Shown one piece after another: positions 42,289 through 63,664 of a DNA stretch of 64,000 nucleotides. Every line of letters begins with the position of its first letter. The first letter of the stretch is position 1. The notes beneath the pieces are model-generated. The model saw only the letters and a list, made by a program, of their open reading frames with translations. It did no database searches and was not told the origin of the DNA. Both the position numbers and the translations under genes were made by a program. Source of the DNA: Nesterenkonia sp. LB17 (GTDB taxonomy: Bacteria; Actinomycetota; Actinomycetes; Actinomycetales; Micrococcaceae); assembly GCF_022565915.1 (NCBI RefSeq), contig NZ_JAJOYX010000001.1, forward strand, positions 682,001-746,000. The letters run 5' to 3'.

Positions 42289-42364
42289 CTGGAGGGTTCC
42301 TGGGCACCAGCCCAGAGATCGCCGCAGGGCGGACTGCGGGCTAGGTCTGCGGTGACGAAACCGC

Positions 42365-42375
42365 TAGACTATACA
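42365..42375 (+). promoter_or_regulatory. Promoter region of the DUF3040 gene
   Basis: Overlapping -10-like boxes TAGACT (42365-42370) and TATACA (42370-42375), about 60 nt before the ATG at 42432. The -35 is not clear. The dinB-DUF3040 gap (42289-42431) holds nothing else recognised. Confidence 0.45.
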
Positions 42376-42431
42376 CCTAGGCGTATCCAGATCGTCCACC
42401 ACGCCATACGACGACCGCGAGGAGCTTCACG

Positions 42432-42839
42432 ATGCCACTGTCGGAGCGTGAACAGCGCATGCTCAAGCAGCTCGAAGAACAGCTGCAGTCGGAGGATCCG
42501 AGCTTCGCAAGCTCCATGCAGGACTCCCCGACGGGAAAGCTCAACGTGCGCAACATTGTGCTCGGCGCTCTGGTCGCAGTCCTCGGCATCGTCGTCCTGC
42601 TGGTCAGCATCTACAACCAGTGGATCCCTGTCGGTGTGATCGGCTTCCTGATCATGGGTGCAGGCGTCTACTACGCCACCACCGGAGGAACCTCCGGAAA
42701 CTCCCGCGGCAACGGCGGCGGCAACGGCAACGGCGGTGGAGGCGGCGGCGGCGGACCCCGCAGCTCGGCCCCGAGTCCGTCCGGAAACTTCATGACCGGA
42801 CTCGAACAGCGCTGGGAAGAACGACGCCGGCAGGACTGA
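42432..42839 (+). CDS. DUF3040 membrane protein
   Basis: A 135-residue protein with the DUF3040 signature MPLSEREQRMLKQLEEQL, two membrane helices (about 37-56 and 60-77) and a Gly/Asn-rich tail (GNGGGNGNGGGGGGGG) ending in a conserved-looking FMTGLEQRWEERRR. Widespread in Actinobacteria upstream of mraZ and the division cluster; function unknown, but position suggests an envelope role. Good ribosome binding site (GAGGAG) and a clear intrinsic terminator after the stop. Confidence 0.9.
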   Translation: MPLSEREQRMLKQLEEQLQSEDPSFASSMQDSPTGKLNVRNIVLGALVAVLGIVVLLVSIYNQWIPVGVIGFLIMGAGVYYATTGGTSGNSRGNGGGNGNGGGGGGGGPRSSAPSPSGNFMTGLEQRWEERRRQD

Positions 42840-42864
42840 CTCCTCCAGGCATCACCTGACTTCG

Positions 42865-42892
42865 AAAGGCCCCTCTCCGGAGGGGCCTTTTT
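42865..42892 (+). terminator. Intrinsic terminator after the DUF3040 gene
   Basis: 11-bp arms aaaggcccctc and gaggggccttt around tccg, followed directly by further T residues: a classic rho-independent terminator, separating the DUF3040 gene from the division cluster. Confidence 0.93.
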
Positions 42893-42912
42893 CGTGCCTG
42901 ATCGCAGCGCCT

Positions 42913-43037
42913 CCACTTCCCACCATCGGGTACCTCCACTTCCCACCATCGGGTACCTCCACTTCCCACCACACAACACCCCCACTTCCCACCCCACAGC
43001 ACCCCACATCCCGCCACAACGGTCCTCAGTTCCCGCC
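42913..43037. repeat. Phased array of 12-bp boxes upstream of mraZ (possible distal MraZ-binding array)
   Basis: The core ccacttcccacc occurs at 42913, 42936, 42959 and 42982, exactly 23 bp apart; degenerate copies follow at 43004 (ccacatcccgcc) and 43026 (tcagttcccgcc). Spacers of copies 1 and 2 are identical, but those of the rest diverge while the core stays, as expected for protein-binding sites. The reverse complement ggtgggaagtgg matches the proximal mraZ operator (43269-43280) at 11 of 12 bases. The rest of the 455-bp gap 42893-43347 holds no gene. Confidence 0.8.
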
Positions 43038-43264
43038 GCTGCGCCCGTCTCGCCTGGTCAGAGGCGGATCATCCAGGCTCTCGCGACGCTGCTCCGGGTC
43101 GCTCCGCACGGCGCGACACTCACCCGGCGCACCCGGAGCGGGCCTGTCCGGGAGAAGCCCTCCACCGCCCTCCACCTGCACCTGAGTGGTATCACTCCAG
43201 GTCAGAGGCTTGAAATCGCCGACGTGGGGGAAGTGTCGGCCGTGCGACGGCAGATTTTGGTTGC

Positions 43265-43292
43265 AAGTGGGGGGAAGTGGGGTAAAGTGGAG
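43265..43292 (+). promoter_or_regulatory. Probable MraZ operator (three AAGTGG direct repeats)
   Basis: AAGTGG at 43265, 43275 and 43285, exactly 10 bp apart, each followed by G or A. MraZ operators in other bacteria are TGGG-containing direct repeats with a 10-bp period just before mraZ, so this is very likely the autoregulatory site of the division cluster. Confidence 0.8.
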
Positions 43293-43347
43293 CTCGGTAG
43301 AGGGAGAAGGAATGATTCTCCTCAACAAGTGAGGTGGTGAGTGTCCT

Positions 43348-43779
43348 TTGTTCCTGGGCACATACACGCCTCGCATGGATGAGAAGGCTCGCCTGATCCT
43401 TCCCGCGAAGTATCGCGAAGAACTGGCCAACGGCCTGGTCCTCACCCGCGGGCAGGAACGCTGCATCTATGTGTTCAGCACGGAAGAGTTCAAGAACGTC
43501 CATCAGCAGATGCGGCAGGCTCCTCTGACCTCACGCCAAGCACGCGACTACATCCGCGTATTCCTCTCCGGAGCCTCTGACGAGATTCCGGACAAGCAGG
43601 GCAGGATCACGGTTCCCGCCGCGCTGAGGGAGTACGCCGGACTGGACCGCGATGTCACGGTCATCGGAGCGGGAGACCGCGCCGAGATCTGGGACACCGC
43701 AGCCTGGAACGAGTACCTGGAGGCGAAGGAGTCGGAGTTCTCATCCACCGATGGGGACGCCATTCCCGGTCTCTTCTGA
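43348..43779 (+). CDS. mraZ: Division/cell wall cluster transcriptional regulator MraZ
   Basis: A 143-residue AbrB-like double-domain protein: [20 protein letters not shown] (first domain with DEKxRxxLPxxxR) and [20 protein letters not shown] (second). It assembles as a ring that binds direct repeats at the head of the dcw cluster and usually represses it. TTG start, chosen because homologues begin MFLG and the other codons upstream are out of frame; ribosome binding site GAGGTGG at 43331-43337. The next gene begins 197 bp downstream. Confidence 0.95.
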
Positions 43780-43976
43780 GCACCGAAGGCGCTCGACGCG
43801 ACACGCCGACCGAACAAAGTACGACAAGTGAAGACGGTTCGAACACTTCAAGGGGATCCTTGGGTGAGTTCTTCCGCCGCCCGGCCGCACTCCTGACTTA
43901 TCTTCCCCGATGTCAGGCAGCAGGCCGGAGCGGAGGAGGAGCTGGTCCAAGGATCCTTTCCCATGACGGAGGCAGT

Positions 43977-44984
43977 ATGGCGCAACGAGAGACAGCAGAC
44001 CGGCACGTGCCGGTGATGCGAGATCGCTGCATCAGACTGTTGGCCCTCGGAGTGGAGAACATCCGGGCCGCCGGCCACCGTCCCGTGGTCATCGACGCCA
44101 CCCTGGGCATGGGCGGCCACGCCGAAGCCATGCTTGCGGCCGACTCCGAGGTGCTCGTGCTCGGCCTGGACCGGGATCCCCAGGCGCATGCCCTCGCGGC
44201 GCAGCGCCTCTCCGCCTACGGCGACCGCTTTCGCGGCATCCACACGGTCTACGACCGCGTGGACGAGGTCGCCGCAGAGGAGCTGGACTCCGATCAGCGA
44301 GTCGCCGGGGTGCTTCTCGACCTCGGGGTCTCCTCGCTGCAGCTGGACGAGGCCTCCCGCGGCTTCGCCTACTCCTACGATGCCCCGCTGGACATGCGCA
44401 TGGATGCCTCGGAGGATTCCCCCGACGAGTCGGTCGCCGAGCTGCTGGCGCGGATCGAGGTGCCCGAGCTGAGGCGGATCCTGCGCGAATACGGCGAAGA
44501 GCGCTTCGCCGGACGCATCGCCTCGGCCATCGTCTCCCGGCGAGAGAGTCGCCCCTTCACCACGACCGCGGACCTCGCCGCCGTGGTGGACCGCGCGGTC
44601 CCCGCGGCTTCCAAGCGCACCGGGGGACACCCCGCCAAACGCACCTTCCAGGCCCTGCGCATCGCGGTCAACGAGGAGCTCGAGGTCCTGCAGCGCACCA
44701 TCCCGAACGCCCTGGACGCCGTGGCGCCGGGCGGTCGGATCGTGGCGATGAGCTATCACTCGTTGGAGGACCGCATCGTGAAGCAGGCCTTCGCTCGACG
44801 CACCAAGTCCTCGGCGCCGACGGGGCTGCCCGTGGAGCTCGAAGAGCACAAGCCGACATTCAGATCCCTCACCCGCGGGGCAGAGCTGCCCGACGAGGCC
44901 GAGATCGCCGAGAACCCCCGCGCAGCGTCAGCGAAGCTGCGTGCAGTGGAGAAGCTGACCGACTCCAGGAGAACCGCCGCATGA
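43977..44984 (+). CDS. rsmH: 16S rRNA (cytosine(1402)-N(4))-methyltransferase
   Basis: A 335-residue methyltransferase: DRHVPVMRDRCIRLL, VVIDATLGMGGHAEAML (SAM motif I), VAGVLLDLGVSSLQLDEASR, RGFAYSYDAPLDMRMD, FQALRIAVNEELEVL and AMSYHSLEDRIVKQAF. It modifies 16S rRNA C1402 at the decoding centre. The ATG at 43977 with GGAGG at 43968-43972 is preferred to a start 117 nt upstream. Overlaps ftsL by 4 nt. The 197-bp mraZ-rsmH gap holds no recognised gene. Confidence 0.95.
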   Translation: MAQRETADRHVPVMRDRCIRLLALGVENIRAAGHRPVVIDATLGMGGHAEAMLAADSEVLVLGLDRDPQAHALAAQRLSAYGDRFRGIHTVYDRVDEVAAEELDSDQRVAGVLLDLGVSSLQLDEASRGFAYSYDAPLDMRMDASEDSPDESVAELLARIEVPELRRILREYGEERFAGRIASAIVSRRESRPFTTTADLAAVVDRAVPAASKRTGGHPAKRTFQALRIAVNEELEVLQRTIPNALDAVAPGGRIVAMSYHSLEDRIVKQAFARRTKSSAPTGLPVELEEHKPTFRSLTRGAELPDEAEIAENPRAASAKLRAVEKLTDSRRTAA

Positions 44985-62755: not shown

Positions 62756-63664
62756 ATGGCCCTGACCCCCGATGACCTCCTGAACAAGGAATTCCCCGAG
62801 ACCAAGTTCCGTCCCGGTTACGACAAGGACGAGGTCGATGACTTCCTTGACGAGGTGGTCGTCGAATGGCGGCGCCTGGCCCAGGAGAACGAGGAGCTCA
62901 CCGCCAAGGTCGCGGCTCTTGAGGAACAGCTCGAGGAGAACCCGGCGAACCTGGAGCCCGATGAGCTCAAGGATGCGGGCCTCTCGGGCTACGCCGGCAC
63001 CACCTCGACGATGACCGGCTCCGCGGACCCCAGCACCGAAGAGCACGAGCTCAGCGCCGACTCGTCGGTCACCGCGCACCCCGAGTACGCGCTCGGAACC
63101 CGCCCCGCACAGGAGCGTCCCGTCGCCGCGGAGCCCGCTGCGAGCGACCAGGCCACCTCCGCCACCGGCGTGCTCGCCATGGCGCAGCAGCTGCATGACC
63201 AGTACGTCTCCGAGGGGGAGCAGACCCGCGCGGCCTACATCGCCGAGGGCGAGGCCAGGCGCACCGAATACATCACCGAAGGTGAGCAGACCCGCAGCGC
63301 CTACATCGCCGAGGGCGAAACCACCCGGGATGCCTACATCGCCGAGGGTGAGACCCGCCGCGACGAGCTGGTCAGCACCGCAGAGGCCACTCACGCCCAG
63401 CTGCTGGCCGAGGCCGAGCGCCGCCGCAACGAGATCGTCACCGAGGCCGAGACCCGCGCCGAGAACGTGATCGAAGAGGCGGAGCTGACCTCGACCCGCA
63501 CGCTGAACGCGCTGGAGCGCAAGAAGGCCGACCTGGAGTCCAAGGTCGGCGAGCTGACCAGCTTCGAGCGGGACTACCGGGCACGGCTCAGGGACTACAT
63601 CGAAGGTCAGCTGGCAGATCTGAACAGTCGCGGCTCCATCGAGAAGGAAGCCACCGTCAACTGA
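62756..63664 (+). CDS. divIVA: DivIVA/Wag31 polar growth protein with hendecad repeats
   Basis: A 302-residue protein. The N-terminal lipid-binding domain is typical (ALTPDDLLNKEFPETKFRPG then YDKDEVDDFLDEVVVEWRRL), followed by a coiled coil (to about residue 68), an 80-residue disordered linker, then five 11-residue repeats (YIAEGExxRxx) and a long coiled coil to the C-terminus. DivIVA marks poles and septa and guides wall synthesis. Ribosome binding site GAGGTG. The repeat block makes this protein diverge from mycobacterial Wag31. No promoter is certain in the 174-bp gap upstream. Confidence 0.94.
   Translation: MALTPDDLLNKEFPETKFRPGYDKDEVDDFLDEVVVEWRRLAQENEELTAKVAALEEQLEENPANLEPDELKDAGLSGYAGTTSTMTGSADPSTEEHELSADSSVTAHPEYALGTRPAQERPVAAEPAASDQATSATGVLAMAQQLHDQYVSEGEQTRAAYIAEGEARRTEYITEGEQTRSAYIAEGETTRDAYIAEGETRRDELVSTAEATHAQLLAEAERRRNEIVTEAETRAENVIEEAELTSTRTLNALERKKADLESKVGELTSFERDYRARLRDYIEGQLADLNSRGSIEKEATVN
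63203..63367 (+). repeat. Five 33-bp tandem repeats in divIVA
   Basis: Residues 150-204 comprise YVSEGEQTRAA, YIAEGEARRTE, YITEGEQTRSA, YIAEGETTRDA and YIAEGETRRDE, in a strict 11-residue period, matching hendecad coiled coils. Codon use is nearly the same between copies, indicating expansion by unequal crossover or slippage. Confidence 0.93.

Follow-up and report, generated by a model that had tools for sequence, protein, structure and literature searches.

The repeats upstream of mraZ in Nesterenkonia sp. LB17 are one case of a widespread arrangement, a variant of the MraZ operator in which further boxes lie upstream of the promoter operator in the opposite orientation. This inverted-doublet arrangement is general in Micrococcales and patchy elsewhere. 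Comparative sequence analysis makes it somewhat probable, in our view, that the distal repeats serve MraZ as auxiliary operators in inverted orientation and form a repression loop by bridging to the operator at the promoter. The original prediction, which had seen a phased array of MraZ-operator-like boxes and thought looping conceivable, is partly supported: its interpretation was right in direction and incomplete. The window analysed here is a stretch of 64,000 nucleotides, and the features on which the argument draws are the following.

42432-42839, plus strand: DUF3040 gene, upstream of the array and on the same strand as mraZ
42911-42926, minus strand: distal inverted unit 1, CTCCACTTCCCACCAT, second box imperfect
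42934-42949, minus strand: distal inverted unit 2, the same as unit 1 including the spacer
42957-42972, minus strand: distal inverted unit 3, perfect doublet CTCCACTTCCCACCAC
42980-42995, minus strand: distal inverted unit 4, second box imperfect (CACCCC)
42992-43017, minus strand: three inverted boxes at a 10-bp period (strict doublets from 42992 and 43002)
43024-43039, minus strand: decayed distal unit CCTCAGTTCCCGCCGC, read from the sequence
43160-43175, minus strand: near inverted doublet CTCCACCGCCCTCCAC, with 117 bp from the start of its second box to the last proximal GTGG
43198-43206, plus strand: CAGGTCAGA, a copy of a second conserved motif, close to the near doublet
43261-43292, plus strand: promoter and proximal operator, the promoter read from the sequence
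43348-43779, plus strand: mraZ, TTG start (Pfam MraZ PF02381, E 2.5e-35)

The predicted core CCACTTCCCACC occurs exactly at 42913, 42936, 42959 and 42982 with the expected 23-bp period, and the two decayed copies were also found, at 43004 (two mismatches) and, read from the sequence, at about 43026. The array thus lies at -435 to -309 relative to mraZ. However, the true repeated unit is not this 12-bp core but a 16-bp doublet, CYCCACTTYCCACCAC (GTGGTGGRAAGTGGRG when reversed), with an inner period of 10 bp. On the other strand the doublet reads as two GTGG boxes 10 bp apart, an arrangement that follows the grammar of the promoter-proximal MraZ operator; the element conserved in relatives is CYCCAC-N4-CNCCAC, or GTGGNG-N4-GTGGRG on the other strand. 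The second box is perfect in the units at 42957, 42992 and 43002 and imperfect in those at 42911 and 42934 (both CACCAT) and 42980 (CACCCC). Three boxes are contiguous in the proximal set; in the distal set this holds only at 42992-43017, and doublets make up the rest. Distal array and proximal operator form complementary arms (87-93%). Strict inverted doublets start at 42957, 42992, 43002 and 43160, which gives four in 42840-43261; 2000 dinucleotide shuffles averaged 0.019 and never exceeded 2. Exact CCACTTCCCACC has four copies in the whole genome (2.82 Mb) and the backward-read pattern none; a genome-wide dispersed repeat was excluded, since all four copies lie in the array.

Two details of the array depart from the original prediction. 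Not every spacer has diverged. Units 1 and 2 match each other throughout, spacer included, and recent tandem duplication therefore accounts for part of the strict 23-bp period. The distal units lie where they had been placed, but a further inverted doublet at 43160-43175 had been missed; it is separated from the array by 120 bp without strict doublets. The six-unit array of the window is an expanded version of the far element, and the near doublet is its positionally better-conserved partner. The exact near-doublet sequence GTGGAGGGCGGTGGAG is also present elsewhere in the same genome (G000:C3:611518-611533), as expected by chance at the rate of that pattern. The highest-scoring tandem repeat in the window lies at 63203-63352 (66 bp x 2.3, also listed with period 33; score 179).

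At the promoter, TTGCAA (43261-43266) precedes the three predicted AAGTGG boxes at 43265-43292, whose GTGG cores at 43267, 43277 and 43287 keep the 10-bp spacing, and TAAAGT (43283-43288), a putative promoter element, overlaps the third box. The protein encoded downstream contains PF02381 in two stretches (120.7 bits), and its predicted structure, of low confidence (pLDDT 64.5), aligns to MraZ structures with Z 16.6-18.6 and rmsd 2.6-3.1 over 135-137 residues. Between the DUF3040 gene and the array lie a hairpin and T run, read from the sequence at about 42866-42892. An mraW RNA (RF01746; 55.2 bits against a threshold of 50) is located at 43851-43963, between mraZ and mraW. An RNA element at the array itself was rejected, as this mraW RNA was the only Rfam match above threshold over 42300-44100 and others scored far below.

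We analysed the upstream regions of 130 mraZ loci from 73 Micrococcales genera; L256 and L271, which lie at contig ends, and duplicate loci of the class set were left out. A proximal operator, recognised by two or more forward boxes spaced 10 bp apart close to mraZ, was present in 127 of the 130. Across the 130 loci, 7 of them in the wrong orientation, same-strand box spacings of 10 bp numbered 128, against 0.32 in shuffles. Absence of the array from close relatives had been named as a refuting condition, and checking it did not refute the prediction: 104 of the 127 loci, representing 60 genera, carry a strict inverted doublet between -600 and the operator, and 23 carry none. Strict doublets number from 0 to 5 per locus. 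Orientation was almost uniform, with 198 strict upstream doublets inverted and 1 forward; under a loose definition, CCACN6CCAC alone, 215 were inverted and 1 forward, compared with shuffle means of 3.4 and 1.0 (maxima 8 and 4). A strict inverted doublet is present in 55 of 80 named Micrococcaceae loci; L143, which is among the 25 that lack it, offers just 119 bp of upstream sequence.

Outside Micrococcales the signal is sparser. In other orders of the class, the proximal chain was found in 57 of 61 loci and a strict inverted doublet in 12, leaving 45 of the 57 without one. Strict doublets there were 17 inverted and 5 forward, and loose doublets 19 and 3 (shuffles 0.9 and 0.65). A phylum-wide sample of 30 loci yielded a loose inverted doublet in 10, of which two belong to the same order, three to one family of the same class and five to one family outside the class. 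Doublet pairs 22 or 23 bp apart recur in three loci of this sample (L299, L306 and L310).

The distal boxes share the grammar of the proximal operator. A matrix trained solely on proximal boxes (n = 354) matched the distal boxes on the reverse strand, which marks them, as sequence, as a second site for the same protein. Reverse and forward matches upstream numbered 104:6 (-250 to -150), 164:2 (-350 to -250), then 41:0, 25:3 and finally 4:7 (-900 to -700). Together with the 198 to 1 bias, these matches bear out the original description of the boxes as MraZ-operator-like and inverted. Loose doublets also resemble the proximal box at positions on which they had not been selected, with G at +5 of both boxes (0.95 and 0.92) and A preceding the inner GTGG (0.61 and 0.55). 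What they lack is the TA of the promoter -10: of 127 loci, 95 have TAA ahead of the last proximal box, and 2 of 396 inverted boxes are preceded by it. Overlap with or adjacency to the promoter is a property of the proximal set and not of the inverted boxes; the distal set is therefore named an auxiliary rather than a core operator. A divergent promoter or operator was rejected, the upstream gene being on the same strand and the inverted boxes being without TAA.

Within the genus of the window, hardly any copy of the doublet pattern lies outside the regions upstream of mraZ. The pattern CYCCACTTYCCNCCAC gave 61 matches in 27 of 30 genomes, and its backward-read version gave none. Of these matches, 56 fall in the 600 bp before mraZ: 24 belong to the proximal operator, and the other 32, from 21 genomes, are inverted. 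Two in G437 and two in G439 fit the loci L153 and L145 by position or spacing, and a single match, on contig 23 of G005, lies away from mraZ. Other MraZ targets in the genome of the window were considered and rejected: six further loose-doublet matches stand against 15 for the backward-read pattern, which places them at chance level.

Eight genomes without mraZ had no doublet, on either strand, in the 1.5 kb upstream of mraW. These genomes retain mraW and comprise all seven of one genus with genomes of 7-10 Mb and one reduced genome; four with neither an mraZ nor an mraW match (G036, G328, G384 and G418) were left out. The mraZ-less genus belongs to family f37 (G456, G476, G493, G509, G524, G535 and G545). 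The joint absence of doublets and mraZ fits MraZ as the ligand, with other sequence changes in those lineages also possible. Taken with the shared grammar, we infer that MraZ is very probably the protein that binds the distal boxes.

We then considered spacing. Of 39 gaps of up to 60 bp between successive strict Micrococcales doublets, 19 measured 22 or 23 bp and 7 measured 10 bp. The 22/23-bp spacing recurs in 8 of the 73 sampled genera, so the period in the window is more than local duplication. The 23-bp period can be read only in part as the sign of a lattice, copies 1 and 2 being a fresh duplication.

When measured from the last proximal GTGG, the nearest inverted doublet lay at distances that clustered at 85-88, 96-100, 107-112, 116-122, 128-131 and about 142 bp. 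With one distance per genus (n = 60), in a statistic that takes genera as independent and controls relatedness incompletely, the mean vector strength at 10.5 bp reached 0.52 when the nearest doublet was used and 0.48 when all were. None of 2000 jittered sets reached this strength, and a control that took distances from the start codon gave 0.09-0.12 for these doublets. Inside the genus of the window this phase bias is weak (R 0.27, 14 distinct nearest distances). The best period by bootstrap was divided between 10.5 and about 11.3 bp, the commonest near distances, 86 and 99, are about 13 bp apart, and in the other-class set by itself phasing was not significant. Among 33 sister pairs, which held few informative changes, near distances were mostly unchanged or had moved by 1-3 or about 10 bp; a 10-bp shift may mean that a box was gained or lost within one lattice. 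A preference of proximal-distal distances for one helical phase is supported but not proven by these distances.

A second motif accompanies the near doublet. Between -260 and -60, 37 of 130 Micrococcales loci contain TGACCTG, as do 12 of the 61 other-class loci (shuffles average 2.2 and 0.7); the reverse complement, CAGGTCA, occurs in 21 of the 130. In 26 Micrococcales cases TGACC follows a doublet within 40 bp, and 19 of these have a gap of 5 or 6 bp; in the genus of the window the motif is mostly in reverse orientation. A reader of TGACCTG is a possible partner of the array. An imperfect 18-bp direct repeat with GGTCAGAGGC, at 43048-43065 and 43192-43209, overlaps the TGACCTG/CAGGTCA motif.

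In the mechanism that we propose, the distal repeats would be auxiliary MraZ operators in inverted orientation. MraZ oligomers would bind the 10-bp-spaced GTGGRG box pairs at 42911-43039 and the near doublet at 43160-43175, and the same or stacked MraZ rings would also hold the three boxes overlapping the mraZ promoter. The intervening DNA, 60-300 bp long, would be folded into a short loop, and this loop would strengthen autorepression of mraZ and the dcw operon. Given MraZ as the ligand, the distal sites probably act by such bridging. More tentatively, and with less than even confidence, MraZ rings might clamp the opposed inverted arrays into a phased loop or wrapped hairpin over the dcw promoter, each 22-23-bp doublet seating one ring and a second, TGACCTG-reading protein helping to set the loop; this would be an ancestral Micrococcales control device with looser relatives elsewhere in the phylum.

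The closest alternative keeps MraZ on the distal boxes and dispenses with looping, the boxes buffering or titrating free MraZ or raising its local concentration by its own gene. A buffering site could tolerate copy numbers anywhere between 0 and 5 strict doublets at a locus, the range observed, and the boxes are located at the MraZ gene itself. Titration is, however, indifferent to orientation, and 198 of 199 strict upstream Micrococcales doublets are inverted; nor would it account for distances that are phase-biased to the operator and not to the start codon. Because a fixed relative orientation is expected from bridging and not from titration, we prefer bridging and regard titration as unlikely. 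It is less likely still, indeed improbable, that another GTGG-reading protein uses the distal array, for example to activate the dcw promoter. The fixed 5-6-bp distance of TGACCTG/CAGGTCA from the near doublet would suit such a protein, and MtrA is described as binding the mraZ promoter of Dietzia in a passage of PMC9602371. Yet the 10-bp spacing and the unselected positions are common to distal and proximal boxes, and both sets are absent from the eight mraZ-less genomes.

Explanations without a dedicated protein fare worse. Inverted boxes are complementary to proximal ones by construction, a G-quadruplex-like stretch lies on the minus strand at 42988-43012, and a G-quadruplex at the Staphylococcus aureus mraZ promoter is reported in a passage of PMC11796246, so the complementarity could in principle serve as an RNA stem, a cruciform or a G-quadruplex. 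Distal doublets nevertheless match the variable positions of their own genome's proximal boxes hardly better than those of other genera (3.24/6 and 3.10/6; genus-level Wilcoxon p 0.16, pairing p 0.32), and a canonical G4 motif is present in just 21 of 104 loci. Moreover, a transcript from the promoter would contain neither box set, because the -10 element sits at the third proximal box. We therefore consider a pairing function highly improbable. Just as little credence goes to a functionless tandem repeat spread by slippage after the DUF3040 terminator: the identical units 1 and 2 are what slippage would leave, but the doublet is found in 60 Micrococcales genera, where spacers and copy numbers differ and the orientation is the same. 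A protein-coding repeat was also rejected, as 23 bp is not divisible by three and the overlying ORF (42894-43340) has no Pfam match.

Bridging between separated operators has well-known precedents. The lac, gal and ara repressors use auxiliary operators and DNA looping, with two sites per multivalent protein, tens to hundreds of bp apart and in a preferred helical phase; their operators are dimer operators in small numbers. The mraZ region would resemble these systems in offering two candidate sites for one multivalent protein at a distance, and would differ from them in that the sites are direct-repeat box arrays in opposed orientation and the protein is a ring.

Among MraZ operators, passages of PMC5282649 and PMC8475190 give that of Mollicutes as (AAAGTGKN3)3, the former describing MraZ as binding as an octamer and the latter stating that in Mycoplasma genitalium the MraZ motif occurs once, at mraZ. 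For Burkholderia cenocepacia, a passage of PMC7761207 describes four 7-nt repeats with 3-nt spacers and an inferred octameric toroid. Like these, the operators described here have GTG-cored boxes at a 10-bp period upstream of mraZ and are probably bound by an MraZ octamer. Unlike these, which the passages present as one direct-repeat cluster at the promoter, they include a second set 60-330 bp further upstream in the opposite orientation, built of doublets that often recur every 22-23 bp. The original view that a second array lies outside standard operator accounts agrees with these passages, and no distal or inverted MraZ array was recognised among the open-licence literature matches listed. 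Two M. genitalium MraZ-promoter complexes (PDB 9r4j and 9sz7, the latter with four boxes) have the same protein family on a multi-box promoter; compared by title alone, neither refers to arrays that are inverted or distant.

MraZ stands at the head of the division and cell-wall operon of a great many bacteria, and a single operator of three or four boxes leaves the many DNA-binding faces of its ring without obvious reason. With a conserved second array facing the other way, the additional faces would have something to bind, and the looping model can be tested directly on small promoter fragments.
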